From assembly GCF_035658495.1 (NCBI RefSeq), contig NZ_CP141944.1, positions 310,001-374,000 of the forward strand: a stretch of DNA of 64,000 nucleotides. The letters are read 5' to 3'. Position numbers and translations under genes: made by a program. The first letter of the stretch is position 1. Every line of letters begins with the position of its first letter. The DNA is from Novosphingobium sp. RL4. Its GTDB lineage: Bacteria; Pseudomonadota; Alphaproteobacteria; Sphingomonadales; Sphingomonadaceae. Positions 14,107 to 61,393 of this stretch are shown here, piece by piece. The notes under the pieces are model-generated. The model saw only the letters and a list, made by a program, of their open reading frames with translations, did not search any database and had not been told where the DNA came from.

Positions 14107-17100
14107 CTATTCGGCCGCGATCGGCTGGGGAAGTGCGATTCCACCCTGGCTGGCGGCATCCTCATGGGCGTGGTGCGGCTCGAACGTGAGCAGCTTGCGG
14201 CGCAGCCACGGACCCACCCGCTTTTCGAAGCCATCAGCCAGGCTGAAGGCAGCCGGCACGATCACCAGAGTCAGCATGGTGGACACCAGCAGGCCGCCGA
14301 TCACGGTGATGCCCATCGGCGCGCGCCATGCCGCATCGCCCGAAAGCGAGATCGCGGTCGGCACCATGCCCGCCGTCATGGCCACGGTGGTCATGATGAT
14401 CGGCTGGGCGCGCTTGTGCCCGGCGTCCATGATGGCCGTGAGCTTGTCGACACCCTTCTCCATTTCCTCGATCGCGAAGTCGATCAGCAGGATGGAGTTC
14501 TTGGCAACGATGCCCAGCAGCATCAGGATGCCGATGTAGACCGGCATCGAGATCGGCTGGCCGACGATCACCAGCGCCAGGAGACCGCCCAGCGGTGCCA
14601 GCAGCAGCGAGGCCATATTCACCAGCGGCGAGACGAAGCGCTTGTAGAGCAGCACCAGCACCGCGAAGACCAGGAAGATACCGCTGATCACCGCGATCAC
14701 GAAGCTGTTGACCATCTCGGCCTGCCACTTGTCCTCGCCGACGGGGGCGTTCGACACGCCGGTCGGCAGGTTCTTCATGATCGGCAGGTTCTGGATCTGC
14801 TCCATGATCGGACCCTTGACCTGCCCTTCGCCAAGGTCGGCGCCGACGAAGATGCGGCGCGACTGGTTGTAGCGCTGGATCTGGGTCGGACCGGCACCGA
14901 AGCGAATCTCGGCCACGCGCTTGAGCGGCACCGAGCCGCCGGTTGCGGTGGTCACGGGAAGATTCTCGATCGTGGAATAGTCCCGGCGCGAGGCGCGGGC
15001 GAGAATGACCCGGATCGGGACCTGCCGGTCGCTCAGCGAGAACTTGGCAGCGTTCTGGTCGATCTCGCCAAGCGTGGCGATGCGGATGGTCTGGCTGAGC
15101 GCCGCCGTCGTCACGCCGAGCTGCGCCGCGAGGTCGAGGCGCGGCACGATCACCAGTTCCGGTCGCTGCAGGTCGGCGGCGATACGGGGTGCAATCACGC
15201 CCGGAATCGTACGCATCTGTTCAGCCAGTGTCTGCGCGGTCTTGTTGAGCAGTTCCGAATCGCTGCCCGAGAGCATCACCGAAATATCGCGGCCACTGCC
15301 GAATCCGCCCGACTGCGTGGCAAATGTCACGCGGGCATCAGCGATGTTCTGCAGTTCGGGCGCCATGCGGCGTTCGAACTCGATGCTCGTGGCCTTGCGC
15401 TGGTCGGCCGGCTTGAGCGCGATGTAGAGCGACCCCCTGCCCTCGCGCGAAGCCTCGAGGATGTGCTGCACTTCAGGCTGCCGTTCGAGCAGGTGCGTGA
15501 CCTTGTCGGCCACCACCACGGTCTGCTCGATGGTGGTGCCGGGCACCATCTCGATGTTGACGGTGCTGGTGTCGTTGTTGGTGTTGGGCTGGAACTGCGA
15601 GGGCAGCCCCGCCAGCAACGCGAACGTCACGACGAGCGCATAGATGCCCGCACAGAATGCGTAGAACCGGTGGTCGTGCATCCGCGCGCTGATCCGCGCC
15701 GAGAAATAACGGTACCAGGTGCCCATGCGTCCGGCGAAGTGAGCCAGCCACCGCAGCGCCTTGCCGAGCACATAGATCGCCACGGGAATGCCGAGAGGTG
15801 CGATCGCCGAGGCCAGCACGAAGGCCGCCTTGCCCAGCCCCATCTTGCCGAGCACGAAGTTCGCGCCCTGGAAGATCATGTAGGCCGCGCCGATGCCCCC
15901 ACCCAGCATGAGCAGGATCGCCACCATCGCGATGAGATAGTACCACCAGCGCGACGGCGCCTTGACCAGCCGGGACTTGAGACGAAGCGCCTCACGCGAA
16001 TCCAGCGTCCAGGCCAGAACCTTGAGATAAAGGTCCATGCCCTTGCCGCCGCCGTGTTCGGCATGGCCGTGAGCCTTGAGGAAGTAGGCCGCGACCATCG
16101 GCGTGATAAGGCGCGCCACGGCAAGGCTCATCAGCACCGCCGCAACGACCGTCAGGCCGAAGGCCTTGAAGAATTGCCCCGGAATGCCCGGCATGAGCCC
16201 GACCGGCAGGAACACCGCGACGATCGAGAACGTGGTGGCGACGACCGCGAGGCCGATTTCGTCTGCCGCGTCGATCGATGCCTGATAGGCCGATTTGCCC
16301 ATGCGCATGTGGCGCACGATATTCTCGATCTCGACGATGGCGTCATCGACCAGCACCCCCGCCACGAGGCTGAGCGCCAGCAGCGAGAGGAAGTTCAGCG
16401 TGAAGCCGAGCATGTCCATGAACCAGAACGTCGGGATCGCCGAAAGCGGGATCGCGATCGCCGAGATCATCGTCGCGCGCCAGTCACGCAGGAACAGGTA
16501 GACGATGACGATGGCCAGCACCGCACCCTCGACCAGCGCTTCCATCGAGCTGGTGTACTGTCCCTTCGTGTAGTCCACGTCGGAGAACAGGCGCGTGATG
16601 TGGATGTTGGGGTTTTCCTTGCGGATCTTGTCCAACGCCTTGGCGGCGCCGTCATAGACCGCCACGTCCGAAGCCCCGAGAGCCCGCGTGAAGCCGAAAG
16701 TCACGACCTCGCGGCCGCGCAGCTTGGCGATGCGGGTCTGTTCGGAATAGCCGTCGTAGACCTTGGCGATATCCGAAAGCTTGACCTGCCTGCCGCCGCC
16801 CAGGTTGATGCGGGTCTGTGAAAGTTGGTACGCATCCTGCGCATTGCCCAGAACGCGGACCGACTGGCGCGATCCGGCGATTTCCGCCTGGCCGCCGGCA
16901 GCGTCGGTGTTGACCTGCCGCAACACGCCGTTGATGTCGTTCGCGGTAAGGCCCAGCGCGATCATCCGCTGCGGGTCGACGACGACGCGGATTTCACGGT
17001 CCACGCCGCCGTTGCGTTCAACCGAGGCGAGGCCTTCGATCGAGAGCAGGGTCTTCGAGATCGTATCGTCGACGAACCAGCTGAGCTGCTCCATCGTCAT

Positions 17101-17550
17101 GTCGTCGGCACTGACGGCGTAATAGGCCAGATTGTCGCCGTTGGCCTCGATCTTGGTGACCATCGGTTCGAGAATGCCGTCCGGCAGCTGCCCGCGCACC
17201 TGATCGACGGCGTTCTTGACCTGGTTCGTCGCGACGTCCGGATTGGTGCCGACCGTGAAGAACACCAGCGTGGTCGACGTGCCTTCCGAGGCGGTAGACT
17301 GGATTTCCTCGATCCCGGGAACGGACCGGACCGCGCCCTCGATGATCTGGGTGATCTGCGTCTCGATCTCGGTCGGGGCGGCGCCCGGCTGCGAGATCAT
17401 GACGTGAACGCCCGGGAATTCCACGTCCGGCATGTTGTTCACGTCCATGCGCATGAACGAGACCACGCCGGCGATCATCACGCCGATGAAGAAGACGATC
17501 GGAATGATCGGATTGCGGATCGACCAGGCCGAGATGTTGCGTAGGCTCAT
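14107..17550 (-). CDS. RND-family efflux permease with an enlarged central region
   Basis: 1147 residues from ATG 17550; a TTG 18 bp upstream overlaps the adaptor gene and was rejected. Standard HAE1/MdtB-like features: N-terminal NPIIPIVFFIGVMIAGVVSF, porter domains, GVLVDDAIVEIEN in TM4 with the proton-relay acidic pair, and C-terminal GIVAKNSILLIDF. It drives proton-coupled export with the adjacent adaptor; no outer-membrane partner is adjacent (the tolC gene at 46.4 kb may serve). Odd: about 90 extra residues (roughly 530-620) with two additional hydrophobic segments between TM6 and TM7. Confidence 0.93.
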   Translation of the reverse strand: MSLRNISAWSIRNPIIPIVFFIGVMIAGVVSFMRMDVNNMPDVEFPGVHVMISQPGAAPTEIETQITQIIEGAVRSVPGIEEIQSTASEGTSTTLVFFTVGTNPDVATNQVKNAVDQVRGQLPDGILEPMVTKIEANGDNLAYYAVSADDMTMEQLSWFVDDTISKTLLSIEGLASVERNGGVDREIRVVVDPQRMIALGLTANDINGVLRQVNTDAAGGQAEIAGSRQSVRVLGNAQDAYQLSQTRINLGGGRQVKLSDIAKVYDGYSEQTRIAKLRGREVVTFGFTRALGASDVAVYDGAAKALDKIRKENPNIHITRLFSDVDYTKGQYTSSMEALVEGAVLAIVIVYLFLRDWRATMISAIAIPLSAIPTFWFMDMLGFTLNFLSLLALSLVAGVLVDDAIVEIENIVRHMRMGKSAYQASIDAADEIGLAVVATTFSIVAVFLPVGLMPGIPGQFFKAFGLTVVAAVLMSLAVARLITPMVAAYFLKAHGHAEHGGGKGMDLYLKVLAWTLDSREALRLKSRLVKAPSRWWYYLIAMVAILLMLGGGIGAAYMIFQGANFVLGKMGLGKAAFVLASAIAPLGIPVAIYVLGKALRWLAHFAGRMGTWYRYFSARISARMHDHRFYAFCAGIYALVVTFALLAGLPSQFQPNTNNDTSTVNIEMVPGTTIEQTVVVADKVTHLLERQPEVQHILEASREGRGSLYIALKPADQRKATSIEFERRMAPELQNIADARVTFATQSGGFGSGRDISVMLSGSDSELLNKTAQTLAEQMRTIPGVIAPRIAADLQRPELVIVPRLDLAAQLGVTTAALSQTIRIATLGEIDQNAAKFSLSDRQVPIRVILARASRRDYSTIENLPVTTATGGSVPLKRVAEIRFGAGPTQIQRYNQSRRIFVGADLGEGQVKGPIMEQIQNLPIMKNLPTGVSNAPVGEDKWQAEMVNSFVIAVISGIFLVFAVLVLLYKRFVSPLVNMASLLLAPLGGLLALVIVGQPISMPVYIGILMLLGIVAKNSILLIDFAIEEMEKGVDKLTAIMDAGHKRAQPIIMTTVAMTAGMVPTAISLSGDAAWRAPMGITVIGGLLVSTMLTLVIVPAAFSLADGFEKRVGPWLRRKLLTFEPHHAHEDAASQGGIALPQPIAAE

Positions 17551-17564
17551 CGCGCTATGTCCGA

Positions 17565-18764
17565 TCAATCGGCCTTGGCGGCAAGCTGGGGCTTGACCTT
17601 GTCGCCGTCGTTGAGGAACCCGCCGGCACGCAGCACGATCTTCTCGTTACCGTCGATGCCGGACTTCACGACGATGCCCTTGCCCGTCACCAGACCGGTC
17701 TGGACGGCGCGGCGATGCACCACGTTCTTGGCGTCCACGACGTAGACGAACGAGCCCTTGTCGTCGTTCTGGATGGCCGATTCCGGCAGCACCGGAGCAA
17801 CCGTCTGGCCGCTGTTGATCACCACGCTGGCAAACCCGCCCGGACGCAGGGCGTCATTATAGGCGAGCGCGATACGGGCGATGCCCTGGCGGTTTGTGGA
17901 ATCGATGATCGGGGCGATCTGCCAGACCTGGCCGGTGAAGCTCTGGTTCGAGCCGGTCGGCGTCACGGTGGCTTCCACGCCGACGCTCAGCCGGGCGAGA
18001 TCGTCCTCGCTAAGCTGGGCGAGCAGTTCCATCTCGCCGCCCTTGGCGAGGCGGAACAGCACGGCACTGCCGCCGCCCACGACCTGGCCAAGCTCGACAT
18101 TGCGTTCGAGCACGAGGCCGGCCGCCGGAGCAACGATGTTGAGGCGGGCGGTCTGTGCCTGAAGCTGGCCGAGCGTGGCGCGCGCGACCCTGACCTGGGC
18201 GACGGCAGCGTCACGCGTCGCCTTCAGCCGGTCGACGTCGGCAGCGGAGATGAAGCCGCGGTCCACCAGTTTGAGCGCACGGTCGAGATTGGCCTGCGCA
18301 AGGCGCGCGTCTGCTTCTGCGACGGAGATCTGCGCGGACTGGCCTGCCTGCTGCTGGGCCTGCACCGAGCGGTCGATCACGGCCAGCACCTGCCCCTGCG
18401 ACACCCAGTCTCCCGCTTCGACGAGCACGGAGCGGACCTGCCCGCCCTCGCCCACCGAACCGACCGGCATCGGGCGGCGTGCCGCCAGCGAACCGGTTGC
18501 GCTGATTTCGCCAACAACGGAGGCGCGGCCAGGCACGACCACGGTTACGGCGGGGGTCTGAACGTCGTTTTCGCCGGCGGCGCTGGCTTCACCTCCGCCG
18601 CGCGTGGCGAACCAGATGCCGATCGCGAGCACGACGGCGCCCACTATGGCGATCCACAGCCATCGGCGGGATGCACGATCCCGTTCGACATCCCCTTCAA
18701 GCGGGTTGCCCGGCGCGGTGAAACCTTCGTTCTCGCTCACATCGATCCTGCTGTCGTAATTCAT
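17565..18764 (-). CDS. RND efflux periplasmic adaptor (HlyD/MFP family)
   Basis: 399 residues. A single N-terminal membrane anchor (WLWIAIVGAVVLAIGIWFA) follows a cytoplasmic tail of about 35 residues. Then come lipoyl halves (GEGGQVRSVLVEAGDWVSQGQ and IVAPAAGLVLERNVELGQVV) around a coiled-coil hairpin rich in A/Q/R, and beta-barrel plus membrane-proximal domains. It bridges the downstream RND permease to an outer-membrane channel. First gene of the operon, 14 bp before the permease start. Confidence 0.93.
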   Translation of the reverse strand: MNYDSRIDVSENEGFTAPGNPLEGDVERDRASRRWLWIAIVGAVVLAIGIWFATRGGGEASAAGENDVQTPAVTVVVPGRASVVGEISATGSLAARRPMPVGSVGEGGQVRSVLVEAGDWVSQGQVLAVIDRSVQAQQQAGQSAQISVAEADARLAQANLDRALKLVDRGFISAADVDRLKATRDAAVAQVRVARATLGQLQAQTARLNIVAPAAGLVLERNVELGQVVGGGSAVLFRLAKGGEMELLAQLSEDDLARLSVGVEATVTPTGSNQSFTGQVWQIAPIIDSTNRQGIARIALAYNDALRPGGFASVVINSGQTVAPVLPESAIQNDDKGSFVYVVDAKNVVHRRAVQTGLVTGKGIVVKSGIDGNEKIVLRAGGFLNDGDKVKPQLAAKAD

Positions 18765-28229: not shown

Positions 28230-28745
28230 TCAGATTCTTTCCGAGAGCTTGATCGCTACGCGGCATCCGAGTCGGATCGCATTGAACAGGAGCGGATAGG
28301 CAGGCGCCTCTTCAGCCCCGGCCGCCAGGGCAGCGTCGCGGTGTTCGCGCTCCTCATCCCGGAACTTGAGGATGGCCTCGCCCAGTTCTGGATCCTCGTC
28401 GCCAAGGTCCTCAAGCTGCTCGGTGTAGTGGCGGTCGATCTCGGTCTCGATCGCGGCGGTGCACGCCATCGCCGCCTTAGGGCCGATCAGCGCCGTTGCC
28501 GCGCCGAGCGCATAGCCCGCCACCGACCATACCGGCTGAAGCAATGTCGGGCGCACGCCGCGTTCCGCGATCATCGCATCGAAGCGCGCCTTATGCTCGG
28601 CCTCCTGCTCGGCCATGCCGGCGATCTCGGTGGAGTGCGGCGCGCGCGCGCCCATCACCGCAAGCTGGCCCGCATAGATCCGCGTCGCCCCATATTCGCC
28701 GGCCTGGTCGACGCGCAGCATCCGCGCGGCCTTGGGTGACGTCAT
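28230..28745 (-). CDS. coq7: Demethoxyubiquinone hydroxylase (Coq7 family)
   Basis: 171 residues from ATG 28745. Di-iron ligands are visible as EYGATRIY, EQEAEHKARF, ETEIDRHY and DEEREHRDAAL (E-x-x-H pairs in a four-helix bundle). Hydroxylates demethoxyubiquinone in the penultimate ring hydroxylation of ubiquinone synthesis. The ATGA overlap with dsbB shows coupling in the ctpA-dsbB-coq7 operon. Confidence 0.93.
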   Translation of the reverse strand: MTSPKAARMLRVDQAGEYGATRIYAGQLAVMGARAPHSTEIAGMAEQEAEHKARFDAMIAERGVRPTLLQPVWSVAGYALGAATALIGPKAAMACTAAIETEIDRHYTEQLEDLGDEDPELGEAILKFRDEEREHRDAALAAGAEEAPAYPLLFNAIRLGCRVAIKLSERI

Positions 28746-29230
28746 GGCTGGACCTTCAGACTGCGGGCGACGAAGCCGAACACGGCCAGCGCGCCCAGGG
28801 TGGAGATGAGGAAGTTGAATCCGGCGAGCGAAATTCCCCCAAGCGTCCAGGGCGCAACGTCGCACCGGATCACCGGCGCGTTCATGATCGCATCCATCGG
28901 GTCGACACCGGCCGCGAACGGGCTGGACGTGCAGGCGGTCATGCCTTCCCACCAGCCGTATTCGACTCCGGCATGGAAACCGCCGATGAGGCCCGAAACC
29001 AGCACGCCCAGCGCCGCCACCGCCACCAGCGGGCGGACCGGACGCCAGAAAAAGGCGAGCGCGGCAAAGACGATCGCGAACATGTGCGGATAGCGCTGCC
29101 ACCAGCACATTTCGCAAGGATGCAGGCCGAAGGCATACTGGCTGACATAGGCCCCGCCGAGCAGGACCACGGGAATGGCGAAAGCCAGCGCGCGGGCGGC
29201 GCGCAAGGGTGCGGCAACGGCAACGGTCAT
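28742..29230 (-). CDS. dsbB: Disulfide bond formation protein B family
   Basis: 162 residues from ATG 29230, four hydrophobic segments. The quinone-linked C-E-M-C motif is at 39-42 (HPCEMCWWQRYPH); the second periplasmic pair is in TACTSS and VIRCDV. Reoxidises a DsbA-like thiol oxidase using quinone. Short DsbI-like form. No dsbA is nearby. Coupled by 4-bp overlap to coq7, which makes the quinone it needs. Confidence 0.88.
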   Translation of the reverse strand: MTVAVAAPLRAARALAFAIPVVLLGGAYVSQYAFGLHPCEMCWWQRYPHMFAIVFAALAFFWRPVRPLVAVAALGVLVSGLIGGFHAGVEYGWWEGMTACTSSPFAAGVDPMDAIMNAPVIRCDVAPWTLGGISLAGFNFLISTLGALAVFGFVARSLKVQP

Positions 29231-40002: not shown

Positions 40003-40861
40003 CGAGCGTCGTTACCAGATCGACTTCGCAAGTCGCGAGGTAAAACTCCTCCTCCGTGCCGCCATCGAAAGGTTCGCCGTCGATCAGCAGCCCCATCGGC
40101 TCGCCCTCGGGGCAGACCAGCTTCAGCCGTTCGTGCTTTCCGAGCGGATCGTGCGGACCGTCGCGGAAATTGCGGTTGAGGAGAGCGATTCCCTGTCCGG
40201 CATAGTCGGCCAGCGATTCGGCATAGAATCCGTTCGCTTCGAGACCGTCGTCGCGTGGATTGACGGTGATCGCGGCGTAGCCGTCCTCGCGCCCACAATC
40301 GGCCTGGGCACAGAACACTCTCGGGCCATTGGCCGATTGCGAGATCGCCTCTCGCGTCGTCGCCACGAATTCGAGGATGTTCACCGCGCGCATGGCTTCG
40401 CGCACTTCGTTCCACACGGTGCCGGGCCCGGCCAGCACCCCCGTCAGCCCGATGCCGTGACGGCTGCGGATCACGGTCGGCCGCCGGGTACGCAAATCCG
40501 CGCCTTCGAGGCGGCCGACGATATCCGCCACCGGAACATCGCCATGCATGCGCTTCGCCAGGAGATTCATGGTTCCTCCCGGCAGCACGAGCACCGGTCC
40601 GTTCCAGCCCTCGGCCCGCGCCACCACCGAATGGGTGGTTCCGTCCCCGCCGAAAGTGACCAGCAGGGTCACTCCCGCTTCATCTAGCGCTTCAGGGGCC
40701 GGGGCATCCTCGTCGGGAAACCGGATCGTGCGTTCCACGTGAAAACCGGCCTGCTCCAATGCCTCTTTCAGTTCGGCGACCGAGGCGTCGTCATTGCTGC
40801 CGCTGGCCGCATTGCACACCAGCCAGGTCTTGCGGGGTTCGGGAATATCTCTGTTTGCCAT
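39992..40861 (-). CDS. Diacylglycerol/sphingosine-kinase-type lipid kinase
   Basis: 289 residues. N-terminal TWLVCNAASGSND, the catalytic nucleotide motif GGDGTTHSVV at 71-80 and LPGGTMNLLAKRMHGD identify the DAGK catalytic family (YegS/BmrU/LCB5-like). Expected to phosphorylate a lipid hydroxyl at the membrane. In a sphingolipid-making bacterium, a sphingoid substrate is an attractive but unproven option. Upstream of, and coupled to, the phosphoesterase gene. Confidence 0.87.
   Translation of the reverse strand: MANRDIPEPRKTWLVCNAASGSNDDASVAELKEALEQAGFHVERTIRFPDEDAPAPEALDEAGVTLLVTFGGDGTTHSVVARAEGWNGPVLVLPGGTMNLLAKRMHGDVPVADIVGRLEGADLRTRRPTVIRSRHGIGLTGVLAGPGTVWNEVREAMRAVNILEFVATTREAISQSANGPRVFCAQADCGREDGYAAITVNPRDDGLEANGFYAESLADYAGQGIALLNRNFRDGPHDPLGKHERLKLVCPEGEPMGLLIDGEPFDGGTEEEFYLATCEVDLVTTLDAS
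40732..40745. promoter_or_regulatory. Weak parS-like site inside the lipid-kinase gene
   Basis: GTTCCACGTGAAAA matches 13 of 14 positions of the ParB site GTTNCACGTGAAAC (the last base differs). About 17.5 kb from oriC. Confidence 0.45.
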
Positions 40862-52662: not shown

Positions 52663-53148
52663 TCAGGCCGTTCCCGAATAGCCGGGCAACCCCGAAAGCG
52701 CGATCCGCGAGCGCATGAAGGTACCGGTTCCCCGGCCAACCTCGTCGCCTTCTTCATCGATCAATCGCGATTCCGCCACCAGTACCCGGCGACGGCCGCT
52801 GACCCAGCGTCCCTCCGCCACGATGGTACCGCCCTTGATGGGCTTGCTGAGCAGCAGGTTGAAGGACGTTGTCAGCAGGAAGCGATCCGTGACCAGGGTG
52901 TTGGCGGCGTAGAAGGCCGCATCGTCCAGCATCTTGAAGTAGATCGTTCCATGCGCGGCCCCGGCTGCATGGAAGCAGTCCGGTTCCACGTGAAACGTGA
53001 TGCGGGCAAGGCCCTCTCCGGGAACGTCCAGACGTGACCGGAACATGCTGTTGATCGGCGCCGAGGCGTAGAGACCTTCCAGCGCCCGCCAGTGAAGACC
53101 GGCGCCGGACACGTCCGAGGCGCCGGCATCCAATTCCTCAGGCGGCAT
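52663..53148 (-). CDS. PaaI-type hotdog thioesterase
   Basis: 161 residues from ATG 53148, overlapping the ptsN stop by 11 bp. The hotdog core is visible (HGTIYFKMLDDAAFYAANTLVTDRFLLTTSFNLLLSKPIKGGTIVAEGRWVSG). Likely cleaves a thioester of unknown acyl group. The gene carries a parS site in its coding sequence. Confidence 0.82.
   Translation of the reverse strand: MPPEELDAGASDVSGAGLHWRALEGLYASAPINSMFRSRLDVPGEGLARITFHVEPDCFHAAGAAHGTIYFKMLDDAAFYAANTLVTDRFLLTTSFNLLLSKPIKGGTIVAEGRWVSGRRRVLVAESRLIDEEGDEVGRGTGTFMRSRIALSGLPGYSGTA
52983..52996. promoter_or_regulatory. parS site (ParB-binding centromere)
   Basis: GTTCCACGTGAAAC matches GTTNCACGTGAAAC at every position (13 of 14 to the strict GTTTCACGTGAAAC). 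It lies about 5.1 kb from oriC, within the thioesterase gene. parS sites cluster within about 10 kb of the origin in many bacteria, including Caulobacter. Confidence 0.82.
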
Positions 53149-55056: not shown

Positions 55057-55650
55057 TTATTCTGACTCGGTCAACGCATGTACGATGCGCTCCACCTGAT
55101 CGCGGGTTTCCGCCAGCGACGTGCCGGTATCGATGATAAAGTCGGCGCGCGCCCGCTTCTCGGCATCGGGAACCTGAAGGCCGAGAATCTGCTCGAACCT
55201 GTCTTCCGTCATGCCCGGCCGTGCCAGCACGCGCTCGCGTTGAGTCTCCGCCGGGGCCGACACGACCGCCACCGCGCCAAGGCCTCGATGGCCGCCTTTT
55301 TCGTAGAGCAGCGGAATGTCGAAGACGATCAGCGGACTCGCGCCGTGATCGCTCATGAACTGCTCGCGCATCGCCGCAACGGCAGGGTGGACGACGCCTT
55401 CCAGCCGGGAAAGAGCATCCTTGTTTCCGAAAACGGCAGCGCCCAGCTTCTGCCGCTCCACCCCGCCGGGGCCGGTCGTTCCGGGAAACGCCGCCTCGAT
55501 CGCGGGCAGGAGCGCGCCGTCCGGTCCCTGAAGCTCATGAACGGCGGCATCGGCATCGAAGACCGGCACTCCCAGTTCACGAAACATCGCTGCCACGGTC
55601 GACTTTCCCATGCCGATCGACCCGGTGAGCCCAAGGACCATCCGAGTCAT
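55057..55650 (-). CDS. coaE: Dephospho-CoA kinase
   Basis: 197 residues. P-loop GLTGSIGMGKST at 7-18, then GVPVFDADAAVHELQG and PLLYEKGGHRGL, with RVLARPGMTEDRFEQIL as the lid. Final step of coenzyme A synthesis. Start overlaps the aroE stop (ATGA). Confidence 0.96.
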   Translation of the reverse strand: MTRMVLGLTGSIGMGKSTVAAMFRELGVPVFDADAAVHELQGPDGALLPAIEAAFPGTTGPGGVERQKLGAAVFGNKDALSRLEGVVHPAVAAMREQFMSDHGASPLIVFDIPLLYEKGGHRGLGAVAVVSAPAETQRERVLARPGMTEDRFEQILGLQVPDAEKRARADFIIDTGTSLAETRDQVERIVHALTESE

Positions 55651-56504
55651 GTCAGCAGGCGCCCGCGCAATTCGGAATCATGCTCGCGCGGCGGTGTCTC
55701 ACCGAAGAAATGGGTGAAGGCGATATCGGCCTGGCCGATCAACATCGCCAGACCGTCCACGGTATCGAAGCCCGCTTCGCGCGCGGCTTTCAGGAACGGC
55801 GTATCGAGGGGGCTGGTGACGATATCGTAGGCAACGCTGCGCGGCGGAGCATGCGACAGGTCGAAGGCGAGCGGCGGCTGTCCGGTCATGCCCAGCGGGC
55901 TGGCGTTGACGATCACGTCGAAACACCGTTCGCGATCATCGAAGGCAAAATCGGTGGGTTCGGCGAAGTGGGAGAGATCGATGGCGTGATGATCGCTCTG
56001 CGTGGTGAGTTCGTCGAGCATCGTCTGCGCCTTGGCCGGATCGCGGCCGGCGAGCACGATGACGAATCCCTTTTCCGCCAGCGCCGCAACGATCGCGCGC
56101 GAGGCACCGCCCGTGCCGAGAATCCGCGCCATGCGGAACAGGTGCGTTTCTTCGAGACGCTCCCGCAGGGGCTCGAGGAAGCCCGGAGCATCGGTGTTAT
56201 AGCCGGTCAGAGTCCCGTCCTGCTCCCGCACGACGGTGTTCACCGCGCCGATCTTCGCGGCGAGGGGATCGAGCCGGTCCAGCAGCGGCAGAATCGCCAG
56301 CTTGTGCGGCATGGTGACATTGCAGCCGCGCCAGTCGGTATCGAGACGACGCTCGGCCAGATAGGCGGCAAGCCCGTCGGCGGGCACGCGATGACGATCG
56401 TAGCGTCCTTCGATTCCCAGCTTTTCGAGCCAGAATCCGTGAATCATCGGCGACTTCGACTGGACAATGGGGTCGCCGATCACTTCGGCATAAGGCAGGC
56501 TCAT
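55647..56504 (-). CDS. aroE: Shikimate dehydrogenase (NADP+)
   Basis: 285 residues. Substrate motif [12 protein letters not shown] (13-24), catalytic Lys in [13 protein letters not shown], the nucleotide motif [13 protein letters not shown], and [13 protein letters not shown]. Reduces dehydroshikimate in aromatic amino acid synthesis. Overlaps both maf and coaE by 4 bp. Confidence 0.96.
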
Positions 56505-57085
56505 TTCGCGATTTCTCCCAGGCGGCGCAGCGCCGCCTGCACCTTGAGCAGCGGCATGCCGAGAATGGTGAAATAGTCCCCCTCAACCGCTTCGAAAAGC
56601 TGCACGCCGCGCGCCTCGATGCGGAATACGCCGACACAGCCGGCAACTTCGGGCCATTCGGCATCGAGATATTCGGCGATGAAGGGCTCCGACATCTCGA
56701 CCACATGCAGCGAAGCAACCGCATCCTCCGCCCAGATCACTTCGCCGTCACGCGCGAGTGCGGCCGCACTGTGGAGATTCATGATCTTGCCCGAAAAGTA
56801 GCGCAGGTGCTCCGCCGCAGATTCGCGGCTTTCCGGCTTGTCGAACCGGCGGCCGCCACATTCGACGAGGGAATCACTGCCGAGCACAAGCTGGCCGGGC
56901 GCGCCCGCCGAAACCGCGAGCGCCTTGGCCTTGGCAAGGGCGAGGGCGATCTCGGCCGGCGCCGCGCCGGACAGCTCCGCTTCGAGCGCCCGCTCATCGA
57001 CGTGAGCGGGTTGCGCGCGGAAAGGAATGGCGGCGGCTTCAAGCATGGCGCGCCGCGAGGCGCTCTGGGACGCGAGGACGATCAT
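56501..57085 (-). CDS. maf: Maf-family nucleotide pyrophosphatase
   Basis: 194 residues from ATG 57085; a TTG two codons upstream was rejected. Maf signature [56 protein letters not shown] and [12 protein letters not shown]. Hydrolyses dTTP/UTP and modified nucleotides. Between ppsR and aroE. Confidence 0.93.
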
Positions 57086-57117
57086 CGACAATTTCCTGAG
57101 ATTCGGATTCGGCGGAT

Positions 57118-57963
57118 TCAGATGGGCTTGGGGCCAAGCGGGCCTTGCAGGCCCGAAGCCCTGCGCTCGTTATAGAGATTGATGATCGCCGCCGCCGTTT
57201 CCTCGATGGAACGGCGGGTCACGTCGATCACCGGCCAGGAATTGTCGGCGAACATGCGCCGCGCATATTTCAGCTCATCCTCGACCCTATCGGTCTTCAC
57301 GTAGTCGGTATCGGGAGACTGGCTGAGCGAGAGCAGGCGGTTGCGACGGATTTGAATCAGCCGATCAGGCGCGGTGGTAAGCCCGACCACCATGGGCCGC
57401 TTGAGCCCGAACAGGGCCGCAGGCGGCGGACTTTCGACCACGATCGGGATATTGGCGACCTTGTATCCGCGATTGGCAAGATAGATCGAAGTGGGCGTCT
57501 TGCTGGTGCGCGATACGCCCGCCAGCAGGATATCCGCTTCTTCCCATTCCTCCCAGGCGATCCCGTCGTCATGGGCGATGGTGAACTGAATCGCATCGAC
57601 ACGCGCGAAATAGGCATCGTCCAGCCGATGCTGGCGGCCGGGCCGCCCCTTGGCTTCCTGGCCGAGCAGGGCTTCCAGCGCATCCGTCACGCCATCCAGC
57701 ACGGCAATCGCCGGCAGGCCGAGAATCTGACAGCGTTCTTCCAGCTTTCCCCGCGTTTCCTCGTTCACCAGGGTGAAGAAGACGAGTCCGGGATTGGCGG
57801 CGATCTCGCCCATGATCCTGTCTAGGTGCTGCTGTGAACGGACCATCGGCCAGAAATGTCGCAGGACGTCTGAATCGTCGAACTGGGCGAGGGCCGCCTT
57901 CGCGATCATCTCGAGCGTTTCGCCGGTGGAATCCGAGAGCAAATGAAGGTGAAATCGCGCCAT
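57118..57963 (-). CDS. ppsR: Pyruvate,phosphate/water dikinase regulatory protein (DUF299)
   Basis: 281 residues. Start [28 protein letters not shown] and the P-loop-like [25 protein letters not shown] (about 148-172) define the family, a bifunctional ADP-dependent kinase and Pi-dependent phosphatase that switches PEP synthase or pyruvate phosphate dikinase. Which target is used is unknown. First gene left of oriC; Caulobacter has the same neighbour. Confidence 0.92.
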
Positions 57964-58016
57964 GCGAGGCTTTTCCAGGGTCTTTCACGGAAGGCGGCCG
58001 GCAGGGCGCCGGGGCC

Positions 58017-58025
58017 TGTGGATAC
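58017..58025 (-). promoter_or_regulatory. DnaA box 1
   Basis: TGTGGATAC; reverse complement GTATCCACA, one mismatch to TTATCCACA. Confidence 0.75.
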
Positions 58026-58139
58026 GTCCGGGCATAAACCACGGGACTGGTCGGTGACAACTCGGATCCCGGGTTTCCTCCCCATTGAACCGATTCAACG
58101 GGCAGACTTGCGAACATGATTCAAATCCAAATCACACCC

Positions 58140-58148
58140 TGTGGGTAA
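58140..58148 (-). promoter_or_regulatory. DnaA box 2
   Basis: TGTGGGTAA; reverse complement TTACCCACA, one mismatch to TTATCCACA. Followed by a further partial box (TTATCCCTG on the minus strand, 58149-58157). Confidence 0.65.
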
Positions 58149-58248
58149 CAGGGATAAAGAGTCTTTGACTCAGACTCCATCGAGAGTCGCTTCGCAGATT
58201 TGAACCTGTTCACCGTGGAATAATTCGGGCAAGATTCAATCGTCCCCG

Positions 58249-58257
58249 ATATCCACA
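58249..58257 (+). promoter_or_regulatory. DnaA box 3
   Basis: ATATCCACA, one mismatch to TTATCCACA. It lies 26 bp before the AT-rich tract, on the opposite strand to boxes 1 and 2. Confidence 0.75.
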
Positions 58258-58319
58258 GGACCAACAGACTCCATCATCCTTCTAAGAATCTTTATTTTTT
58301 TGATCGGACCTGAATCTCG

Positions 58320-59345
58320 ATGCCTGGCCTCCTTCTCGAAAACCTGCGCGGAACGAACACGAGCAAGCGCCCGATCTGGCTGATGCGCCAGGCCGGAAGA
58401 TACCTTCCCGAATACCGCGCCCTTCGCGCCGAAAAGGGCGGATTCCTCGCGCTCGTCTATGATACCGACGCTGCGGCCGAAATTACGCTCCAGCCCATCC
58501 GCCGCTTCGGATTCGACGGCGCGATCCTCTTCTCGGACATCCTCATCGTCCCTTACGCGATGGGACAGGATCTGCAGTTCCTTGCCGGTGAAGGCCCAAA
58601 GCTGACTCCACGCCTGGTCGATCACGCGCTGGTGAATCTCACCGCCGTTCCCGAGCGCCTGACTCCCATCTACGAAACCGTCCGCAAAGTCCGCGCCGGA
58701 CTCGAATCCGACAAGACCATGCTCGGCTTCGCCGGAAGTCCGTGGACTGTCGCAACCTACATGTGCGCAGGCGAAGGCAGCCGGGATCAGCATGAGACGC
58801 GGGCAATGGCCTATCGCGACCCTGCGGCGTTCGAGGCGATCATCCAGGCTATCGTGGGGGTGACTGTCGAATATCTCAGTGGCCAGATCGAAGCCGGAGC
58901 GGAAGCCGTCCAGCTCTTCGATTCATGGGCCGGATCACTCTCTCCCGCCCAATTCGAACGTTGGGTCATTGCCCCCAATGCGAAGATCGTATCCGAGATG
59001 AAAGCACGCCATCCCGAGACTCCGGTCATCGGATTCCCAAAGGGGGCCGGCGAAAAATTACCGGCATACGCCCGTGAAACCGGAGTCGACGCGGTTGGAA
59101 TCGATGAAACGATAGACCCGGTCTGGGCGGCGAGAGAGCTTCCCGCCGGGCTTCCGGTGCAAGGGAATCTCGATCCGCTTCTCCTGCTTTCGGGTGGGAA
59201 CGATCTCGAGATTCAGACTCACCGCGTGCTCGATGCTTTCGCCGACCGGCCGCATGTCTTCAATCTCGGACACGGCATCGGCCAGTTCACGCCGATCGAA
59301 AATGTCGAGCGACTGCTAGGCATCGTGCGCGCCTGGTCGCGGTAG
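58320..59345 (+). CDS. hemE: Uroporphyrinogen decarboxylase
   Basis: 341 residues. MRQAGRYLPEYRALRAEKG (22-40), GFAGSPWTVATYM and HGIGQFTPIENVERLL are diagnostic. Converts uroporphyrinogen III to coproporphyrinogen III in heme synthesis. The start codon has no clear ribosome site. The gene is loaded with GANTC sites (15 in 1026 bp). Adjacent to oriC as in Caulobacter, where hemE transcription reaches from the origin. Confidence 0.97.
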   Translation: MPGLLLENLRGTNTSKRPIWLMRQAGRYLPEYRALRAEKGGFLALVYDTDAAAEITLQPIRRFGFDGAILFSDILIVPYAMGQDLQFLAGEGPKLTPRLVDHALVNLTAVPERLTPIYETVRKVRAGLESDKTMLGFAGSPWTVATYMCAGEGSRDQHETRAMAYRDPAAFEAIIQAIVGVTVEYLSGQIEAGAEAVQLFDSWAGSLSPAQFERWVIAPNAKIVSEMKARHPETPVIGFPKGAGEKLPAYARETGVDAVGIDETIDPVWAARELPAGLPVQGNLDPLLLLSGGNDLEIQTHRVLDAFADRPHVFNLGHGIGQFTPIENVERLLGIVRAWSR

Positions 59346-59473
59346 AATCCGCGCCAAAACGACCAACCGCCTGACTCGCCCCGGAATCGGCTTGCCCGAA
59401 TCCGGGCGAGCGTGCAGGAGGTCGCCTTCCGGATTCATCGAGACTCGTGCTGCCCATGCAGGAAGTGCTTTCC

Positions 59474-59899
59474 ATGCTTTATCTCTGGCTCAAGGCCGGA
59501 CACGTCATTTTCGTGATCTTCTGGATGGCCGGCCTGTTCATGCTGCCGCGCTATTTCGTCTACCATCAGGAATCAGAGCCCGGCTCGGCCGAAGAAGCGC
59601 GCTGGATCGATCGCGAATCCAAGCTTCGCAAGATCATCCTCACCCCGTCGCTGGTCCTGGTATGGGTGCTCGGCATCGCTACCGCCTCTGCGATGGGGGC
59701 ATGGAGCGAAGGCTGGCTTCATACCAAGCTGCTCTTCGTACTGGGCCTGTCGGGCTACCATGGGTGGTTGGTCGGTTACGGCAAGAAGCTGGCAAAGGGC
59801 GAACGGCCGCTAACGGGCCGGAAACTGCGCCTGCTCAATGAAATTCCCGGACTTGCAGCAGTAGTGATCGTTATTCTGGTGGTCGTGAAGCCGTTCTGA
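59474..59899 (+). CDS. hemJ: Protoporphyrinogen IX oxidase HemJ (CopD-like)
   Basis: 141 residues from ATG 59474, chosen because AGGAAG lies eight bases upstream; GTG 59447 and ATG 59456 are alternatives. Four membrane helices; conserved LKAGHVIFVIFWMAGLFMLPRYFVYH with heme-ligand histidine, and ESKLRKIILTPSLVLVW. Oxidises protoporphyrinogen IX, a later step of the pathway that hemE serves. Confidence 0.9.
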   Translation: MLYLWLKAGHVIFVIFWMAGLFMLPRYFVYHQESEPGSAEEARWIDRESKLRKIILTPSLVLVWVLGIATASAMGAWSEGWLHTKLLFVLGLSGYHGWLVGYGKKLAKGERPLTGRKLRLLNEIPGLAAVVIVILVVVKPF

Positions 59900-60136
59900 C
59901 GATCGGGCGATTCATCGTCCAAAAGCATCACTTGCCGCTCGGGCACTGCGGGAATCTCGATTCAGCCCGGCCACACGCCGTCCCGCAGATGACTCGTTGA
60001 CCCAAAGCTGCCCAGAGCTTATCTGAGCCTTGTTCCGGCACAGGGCGGCGAGCCCTTTCGCTTGCCCGGATCCGCTTTCCCCAAGCCCAACGATCCCGCC
60101 GGCCGACACCCATTTTCCATCCGGAATCCAGACAAG

Positions 60137-61393
60137 ATGCACCTTAAAGAACTCAAGAAGAAAACGTCGGCCGATCTGGTCGAAATGGCCGAGGAACTCG
60201 GCGTGGAAGGCGCGTCGACGCTGCGCCGCCAGGACCTCATGTTCGCCATCCTCAAGGAAGTGGCTGAAGACGGTGAGGAAATCATCGGGCAGGGCACCAT
60301 AGAGGTTCTCACCGATGGCTTCGGCTTCCTGCGCAGCCCCGAGGCGAATTATCTTGCCGGTCCTGACGATATCTACGTCTCGCCCAACCAGGTCCGTAAA
60401 TGGGGCCTGCGCACCGGCGATACCGTCGAAGGCGAGATCCGTGCTCCCCGCGACGGCGAGCGTTACTTCGCCATCACCAAGCTCATCAGCGTCAACTTCG
60501 ACGATCCCGACGTGGTGCGCCACCGCGTCAACTTCGACAACCTGACACCGCTCTACCCCGATCAGCGCCTGAAGCTCGACAGCCTCGACCCCACGGTCAA
60601 GGACAAGTCGGCCCGCGTGATCGATCTCATTTCGCCGCAGGGCAAGGGCCAGCGCGCCCTGATCGTGGCCCCGCCGCGCACCGGCAAAACCGTGCTGTTG
60701 CAGAACATGGCCAAGGCCATCACTGACAACCATCCGGAAGTCTTCCTTCTCGTGCTGCTCGTCGACGAGCGCCCGGAAGAAGTCACCGACATGCAGCGCT
60801 CGGTGAAGGGCGAGGTCATCTCCTCCACCTTCGACGAACCCGCCCAGCGCCACGTCCAGGTCGCCGAAATGGTGATCGAGAAGGCCAAGCGCCTCGTCGA
60901 GCACAAGCGCGACGTCGTGATCCTGCTGGACTCGATCACCCGTCTCGGCCGCGCCTACAACACCGTGGTGCCCAGCTCGGGGAAGGTGCTGACCGGTGGT
61001 GTCGACGCCAACGCCCTGCAGCGCCCCAAGCGCTTCTTCGGCGCCGCGCGCAACATCGAGGAGGGCGGTTCGCTCTCGATCATCGCTACGGCCCTGATCG
61101 ACACCGGCAGCCGCATGGACGAAGTCATCTTCGAAGAGTTCAAGGGCACCGGTAACTCGGAAATCGTCCTTGATCGCAAGGTGGCGGACAAGCGCATCTT
61201 CCCGGCGCTCGATGTCGGCAAGTCGGGCACCCGCAAGGAAGAGCTGCTGGTTCCCAAGGACCAGCTCACCAAGATGTGGGTCCTTCGCCGTATTCTCATG
61301 CAGATGGGCACCGTCGATGCGATGGAGTTCCTGCTCGACAAGATGAAGGACTCGAAGACCAACGAGGACTTCTTCTCGACGATGAACCAGTAA
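60137..61393 (+). CDS. rho: Transcription termination factor Rho
   Basis: 418 residues from ATG 60137 ([22 protein letters not shown]); a longer start at 60062 is rejected. RNA-binding domain ([29 protein letters not shown] form), Walker [13 protein letters not shown] near 178, Walker [18 protein letters not shown], and the Q/R loops. Hexameric helicase that ends transcripts. The 237-bp leader (59900-60136) holds no gene and may allow Rho autoregulation. Confidence 0.98.

Follow-up and report, generated by a model that had tools for sequence, protein, structure and literature searches.

The putative replication origin of the Novosphingobium sp. RL4 chromosome lies in a region that is dense in GANTC, the pentanucleotide that, from the protein family, we take to be the target of the methylase CcrM in this organism. 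The region was examined in a 64 000 bp stretch (NZ_CP141944.1, positions 310 001–374 000), hereafter the window, and coordinates without a contig prefix are positions in it. What is firm is that the origin region is GANTC-dense, that its core is nearly universal in the sphingomonad-type loci examined, and that in some lineages the core is extended by silent codons in neighbouring genes. In the window, this field reaches approximately 2 kb to the right of the origin, over hemE and the two gaps between it and rho, and approximately 3 kb to the left, where it is weaker and patchy and involves aroE and coaE. We tentatively favour a reading in which its methylation state acts on replication.

GANTC density around the origin

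The first-pass annotation had counted 38 GANTC in approximately 2.04 kb, and an exact recount agrees: there are 38 GANTC starts in 58092–60129, approximately one per 54 bp or 18.6/kb, divided between the ppsR–hemE gap (10), hemE (16), the hemE–hemJ gap (5), hemJ (2) and the hemJ–rho gap (5). Its control counts also stand, with two in rho, none in the TerC gene, eight in the 3.4 kb gene at 14107–17568 and six in ppsR. Dinucleotide shuffles of 58092–60129 gave a mean of 14.6 GANTC (standard deviation 3.5, maximum 25, n = 1000), which rules out local composition as the cause. Among the 256 words of the form XYNZW, GANTC was the most over-represented in the stretch (38, versus an expectation of 6.6 based on the remainder of the window), followed by AANCT (15 versus 3.9). 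GANTC also ranks first in hemE and in the corresponding gaps of relatives, ruling out another word as the real driver. Repeats were likewise rejected as a cause, as only short ones of 12–18 nucleotides are present within 57900–60140.

The 64 kb window as a whole is poor in GANTC (240, versus 332 ± 20 in its shuffles). The random rate is approximately 3.3/kb when calculated from base composition, or 7.2/kb from the dinucleotides of the stretch. As 18.6/kb exceeds both, the loss of genome-wide avoidance is by itself not a sufficient explanation, and relaxed avoidance alone is ruled out.

The genome consists of two contigs of 3.625 Mb (C1, which contains the window) and 1.821 Mb (C2). It was sampled in 60 stretches (1.19 Mb) that with the window make up 23% of the 5.446 Mb, and claims on rarity are limited to that 23%. 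The 60 stretches contain 1833 GANTC, or 1.54/kb. The first-pass annotation had proposed a search for windows of equal density elsewhere; among 2038 bp windows of the sample there were none. After the 38 found here, the highest counts were 18 (C1:365185, which is 55185–57222 in the window), less than 1 kb to the left of the cluster, and 17 (C1:16892). The last, C1:16892–18930, is approximately 350 kb from the origin and lies over an open reading frame (ORF) that is acyltransferase-like by eye and its neighbour.

The putative origin

The features of the putative origin are as follows.

57964..58319, no strand: putative oriC, the ppsR–hemE gap, with 10 GANTC; GC skew is of opposite sign on the two sides of the window
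58092, 58118, 58159, 58167, 58173, 58184, 58233, 58267, 58286 and 58312: GANTC starts in the putative oriC
58167..58171: GANTC at −153 from hemE, TTTGACTC, present in 13/19 aligned loci
58184..58188: GANTC at −136 from hemE, AGAGTCG, present in 18/19 aligned loci
58267..58271: GANTC at −53 from hemE, CCAACAGACTCCATC, present in 16/19 aligned loci
58017..58025, minus strand: DnaA-box-like GTATCCACA, one mismatch to TTATCCACA
58140..58148, minus strand: DnaA-box-like TTACCCACA, one mismatch
58249..58257, plus strand: DnaA-box-like ATATCCACA, one mismatch, in a block conserved in most aligned relatives

Skew, gene order and DnaA-box-like sites together suggest that replication of the chromosome probably starts in the ppsR–hemE gap. 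GC skew in 20 kb stretches ranges from −0.014 to −0.047 over C1:1–200000 and from 0.020 to 0.041 over C1:374001–560000; in 4 kb bins it is scattered. The ppsR–hemE arrangement seen in the window is also found in 153/160 relatives with a HemE at least 58% identical, and the site is occupied by ppsR, hemE, hemJ and rho, with repABC genes absent. The boxes were scored against TTATCCACA, which we took to be the DnaA-box consensus. Each of the seven gap GANTC sites not listed individually is present in 5–10 of the 19 aligned loci. Approximately 5 kb to the left of the origin, at 52983–52996, is a parS-like GTTCCACGTGAAAC, identified with what we assume to be the parS pattern, and a one-mismatch copy is at 40732.

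GANTC excess at the codon level

The genes and gaps flanking the origin are as follows.

58320..59345, plus strand: hemE (uroporphyrinogen decarboxylase), TIGR01464 over cut-off, 15 GANTC inside codons
59346..59446, no strand: hemE–hemJ gap, 5 GANTC; the hemJ start is taken as GTG at 59447 and the real start may be later
59447..59899, plus strand: hemJ, 2 GANTC, no excess; TIGR00701 at 123.6 bits, cut-off 138
59900..60136, no strand: hemJ–rho gap, 5 GANTC, the right edge of the cluster
60137..61393, plus strand: rho, 2 GANTC in 1.26 kb, outside the cluster; TIGR00767 over cut-off
57118..57963, minus strand: ppsR, 6 GANTC, no clear excess
55647..56504, minus strand: aroE, 8 GANTC versus 2.2 by codon shuffle (reached in 0/200), the left arm of the cluster
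55057..55650, minus strand: coaE, 5 GANTC versus 2.0 by codon shuffle (3/200)

Codon tests covered 65 ORFs of the window, picked mechanically, with 200 shuffles each. The 15 GANTC within hemE, to which a sixteenth that begins on the final base of the stop codon (59345) can be added, compare with 7.0 when its own codons were shuffled among like amino acids and with 3.0 under the codon usage of the window's other genes, and 15 was reached in 0/200 shuffles in either case. All 15 could be removed by synonymous change, and in a word scan of hemE GANTC was first of 256 with a score of 8.4, the next scoring 4.7. The density in hemE is carried by codon choice, in support of the first-pass proposal that codon choice seems bent to hold the motif.

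The cluster had been described as one-sided, which has to be revised, as aroE and coaE on the left also exceed the codon-level expectation; the field is therefore two-armed and patchy. The identification of aroE is from shikimate dehydrogenase models, for which the top scores are somewhat below the cut-offs. As a whole, the left flank (55057–58091) contains 25 GANTC in 3.04 kb (8.2/kb) and is not clearly above its own dinucleotide shuffles (mean 19.5, maximum 34, n = 300). On the right, the extent first given, from the origin through hemE and hemJ to the rho leader, holds for hemE and for the hemE–hemJ and hemJ–rho gaps; the hemJ coding sequence has no excess and rho is outside the cluster. 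Codon shuffles revealed no codon-level excess in ppsR, maf, hemJ or rho, which speaks against a plain distance-dependent bias. Indeed, ppsR is closer to the core than aroE yet is without clear excess (6 GANTC versus 4.9 by its own codons, reached in 66/200, and 3.4 by window codon use, reached in 15/200), and this argues against a mutation bias that declines smoothly with distance.

A core shared by sphingomonad-type loci

The named relatives closest in HemE are Novosphingobium. To place the field in context, 196 hemE loci with a tblastn match were collected, and 192 of them, with a closed frame preceded by 400 bp of sequence, were retained. In the genus search hemE was found in 145/149 genomes and the best 30 matches were taken as loci; in the order search it was found in 197/197, approximately 90 of which were examined. 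The encoded HemE was at least 58% identical to that of the window in 157 of the 192 loci and below this in 35, which include G045 and G133 of the window's own family; removal of three duplicates from the 157 left 154. Background density was taken from the outer parts of the 99/154 loci that were of sufficient length.

The 400 bp before hemE contain 15.3 GANTC/kb in the 154 loci, versus a background of 1.98/kb in the 99. The median is six sites, with at least two in 153/154 loci and at least three in 151/154; one locus has none and two loci have two. GANTC is again first of 256 words in these gaps (observed/expected 4.2, next 2.7). The 35 more distant loci have 0–9 GANTC in the 400 bp. Among these, the 12 that belong to other families of the order (11 to one family and one to a second) have only 0–2, and as ppsR is divergent before hemE in 11/12 of these, gene order alone does not produce the core. 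We conclude that the origin core is common to nearly all sphingomonad-type loci examined, and that only the spill into hemE is lineage-specific.

Spill, defined as at least six GANTC in hemE, was found in 21/154 loci, the remaining 133/154 having fewer than six. Mapped on a single FastTree tree of HemE (154 rows), this distribution needs at least seven changes (gains or losses), and a stricter set of 13 loci needs six. Summed over all 154 loci, hemE contains 361 GANTC versus 414 expected from shuffles, so there is no general excess. Loss of the cluster in close relatives, a check that the first-pass annotation had set out, was not seen in the seven nearest examined, which retain 7–16 sites in hemE. 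Far from the window, spill in the Sphingomonas trueperi group and in G188, a member of another genus with 12 hemE sites of which one is shared with the window, looks independent. The coaE and aroE genes have a GANTC excess in several relatives, in the case of coaE also in genomes without hemE spill. Examples of coaE excess near the origin without hemE excess are loci L304 (5 versus 1.6), L307 (4 versus 1.8) and L308 (4 versus 1.3).

CcrM, GcrA and a phased array at ccrM

The relevant features outside the window are as follows.

C1:1986297-1987430: CcrM, 377 amino acids, RAMA match over cut-off
C1:1986104-1986256 (L149:6104-6256): GANTC array before ccrM, 10 sites at −193 to −45 on a grid of approximately 10 bp
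C1:3397686-3398324: GcrA, present

The genome encodes the CcrM that the first-pass annotation had presumed when it named GANTC as the CcrM word: besides the RAMA match, the NCBIfam model that matches best is that of CcrM (E 2.3e-182, 606 bits versus a cut-off of 830). CcrM is present in 30/30 relatives searched.

With an eleventh site, the array before ccrM is the densest 300 bp place of the genome sample, and oriC is second with 10. At least seven GANTC are found within 300 bp of ccrM in 28/30 sphingomonad relatives, which gain and lose GANTC on the slots of the array. Spacings are mostly multiples of approximately 10 bp: of 599 pair distances of up to 65 bp, none is 12–17, 23–26 or 34–37 bp, and the cosine at period 10 is 0.75, a value from related rows whose pairs are not independent. 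Most of the 21 aligned ccrM upstream regions have two GANTC less than 30 bp after a conserved TTGAC, an arrangement like a promoter spacer. This organization points to a protein that would bind multiple GANTC sites along a single face of the helix, and the array is probably the operator of a methylation-sensing ccrM feedback. Six GANTC before the Agrobacterium gcrA gene provide a precedent for a GANTC-rich promoter of a partner gene (PMC11514494). No helical phasing was found among the origin GANTC (cosine 0.03 at period 10, 578 pairs), and the 99 hemE pairs gave −0.21. As the origin sites are unphased, the origin and ccrM arrays need not be read alike.

The presumed origin of the second replicon has no comparable cluster, with only five GANTC in 300 bp (C2:1061192–1061491, L271) close to where its GC skew flips. 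Near the flip are a RepA-type partition gene (288 bits, cut-off 348) and an ORF that is ParB-like by eye. A 477 amino acid ORF beside the RepA-type gene had no NCBIfam family match.

The presence of GcrA raises the possibility that the field is a hub for GcrA and RNA polymerase. Methylated or hemimethylated GANTC would then recruit GcrA and the housekeeping sigma factor, tying transcription of hemE, of the origin and of the hemE–hemJ–rho genes to passage of the replication fork, and replication control would be a by-product. GcrA binding depends on methylation and covers a larger area on the fully methylated ctrA P1 (PMC3667746), TTGACTC and AGAGTCG elements are present in the ppsR–hemE gap, and the gaps up to rho are GANTC-rich with five sites each. 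Many of the extra sites are within the hemE and aroE coding sequences, where promoters are not expected, and we consider this explanation doubtful, if a genuine contender.

A possible methylation switch at the origin

That the GANTC field makes this an origin whose methylation state works as a switch, the CcrM counterpart of E. coli oriC with its GATC, is the reading we favour, as plausible if not quite probable. The pattern of the shared core suggests that the mark may help to decide when copying can restart. Before firing, the field would be fully methylated, and its sites would be the first to become hemimethylated by the replication forks. In Caulobacter CcrM is made late in the cell cycle. 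If the timing in this genus is alike, the field would stay hemimethylated until late-cycle CcrM synthesis, and this state would lower the chance of the same origin refiring. Either a protein would bind the clustered hemimethylated GANTC, or full methylation would favour the action of DnaA, RNA polymerase or GcrA at the field; with more sites, the switch would be sharper. We infer methylation of the field in vivo, the timing of CcrM in the genus and the effect on re-initiation; the control of replication is suggested by analogy with orphan-methylase clusters and with the over-initiation seen in Agrobacterium, both described below.

Several observations weigh against this reading. Analysis of the genome with PF03925 found no SeqA homologue (among 14 control genomes, only E. 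coli was positive). In Caulobacter CcrM is not required for initiation, and its overproduction gives abnormal chromosome content (PMC6090056). Alphaproteobacteria have a general intergenic GANTC excess, and CTNAG, which is not a CcrM word, shows a similar intergenic bias in them (PMC3973325). Part of the gap core may reflect this general excess, which is about 1.5-fold, versus sevenfold in the gap core. Two genomes of the same family as the window with more divergent HemE (G045 and G133) have only two and one sites in the 400 bp. The gap is rich in GANTC in Sphingomonas zeae (13; L038) and in a Sphingomonas metagenome-assembled genome (12; L030) but hemE has only one and two, respectively, so a dense core does not force spill into hemE. 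Gap count and hemE excess are correlated (Spearman 0.39), a relation that is not significant when tested on independent pairs (median p 0.25). In the window, codon shuffles are also exceeded, less strongly, by two origin-distant genes (1185–2615, 7 versus 3.2, reached in 0/200; 28230–29117, 4 versus 1.2, 2/200). Finally, site-level purifying selection was not found in hemE, where 10 sites were kept versus 7.1 expected from matched control words, and in two further comparisons 5 versus 6.0 and 4 versus 5.2.

The retention of hemE sites, close to that of control words, gives no sign that any single one is needed; as new ones arise meanwhile, it is their number that persists and not their position. 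This persistence would fit selection on density, and also a site-creating bias. The latter leads to an explanation in which a conserved functional core has been extended, in some lineages, by drift or by mutation or recombination that is locally biased towards new GANTC, the extension having no present function. Retention at approximately the control-word rate speaks for this, and the two origin-distant genes and the hemE total over 154 loci, below that of shuffles with 133 loci under six sites, are in line with it. Set against these are the word-specificity of the hemE excess, its repeated change on the HemE tree, the fact that ppsR, maf, hemJ and rho are without excess, and a density above the random rate. 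We regard an extension of this kind as unlikely.

Persistence of number with turnover of position is also compatible with a role in capacity, in which a dense field that replicates early would absorb CcrM or a GANTC-binding protein and so delay or sharpen remethylation elsewhere. A broad, weak shoulder of raised density to approximately 130 kb from the origin is in line with this role: density is 2.83/kb within 60 kb (three stretches), 2.40/kb at 60–130 kb (four stretches) and 1.61–1.68/kb beyond (30 stretches). The sink would be small, as 38 sites are approximately 0.5% of the approximately 8400 expected genome-wide at 1.54/kb, and titration appears improbable.

The switch at the origin could take a more specific form, a hemimethylation-reading control that is the sphingomonads' own. 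A new protein, or GcrA newly used, would bind clustered GANTC cooperatively, keep the fired oriC inactive over 2–5 kb, and act also on the phased array at ccrM, such that one reader sets both origin release and CcrM synthesis, with selection bending the hemE and aroE codons in some lineages. We offer this scheme as a speculative one that is rather unlikely as it stands.

Comparison with known systems

In E. coli, palindromes that are targets of the adenine methylase Dam are packed in oriC, where they are the first sites to become hemimethylated and are acted on by SeqA. The origin described here is similar in that adenine-methylase palindromes are crowded at it and would be hemimethylated first. 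It differs in the word, GANTC, and the methylase, in that no SeqA homologue was found, and in that the field extends for kilobases into genes. The Caulobacter origin, Cori, adjoins hemE, as the putative origin does here. Unlike the present locus, Cori is not described as having such a GANTC density in the parts of PMC3973325 consulted, a comparison by description and not by sequence.

Among the matches listed from the open-licence PubMed Central, neither a GANTC cluster at the oriC of a sphingomonad nor a phased array at ccrM is described in any title, abstract start or passage. GANTC before ctrA are counted in PMC8116508 and GANTC methylation in a Sphingomonas is the subject of PMC8067484, and oriC is not treated in the parts of either that were covered. 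On the control of DnaA-type alphaproteobacterial chromosomal origins by CcrM the evidence is divided, CcrM being dispensable for initiation in Caulobacter (PMC6090056) while the second Agrobacterium origin is responsive (PMC11514494). With tens of GANTC in an origin region, some of them placed via silent hemE codons, the question becomes testable by recoding, and the phased ccrM array provides a bait for a reader protein.

Clusters of the words of orphan methylases at origins have been reported for GATC and Dam in Gammaproteobacteria, TTAA in Arthrobacter, CTCGAG in Nocardia and CTAG in Haloarchaea (Blow et al. 2016, PMC4752239). As in those systems, the non-coding origin is dense in the word, a feature that relatives share. 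Their methylases are without an apparent nuclease partner, a trait for which only the ORFs neighbouring ccrM were listed here. CcrM and GANTC are not among the four named in PMC4752239, and here the cluster is also found in coding genes, via silent codons. The GANTC-rich repABC origins and ori2 of Agrobacterium tumefaciens likewise have CcrM words at an alphaproteobacterial origin (PMC11514494, PMC6090056). The second origin of Agrobacterium tumefaciens over-initiates when CcrM is overproduced, which its authors compare with Dam and SeqA (PMC11514494). That origin is of the RepC type, with three sites over the putative ori2, whereas the putative origin described here would be of the DnaA type, chromosomal, and surrounded by tens of sites.

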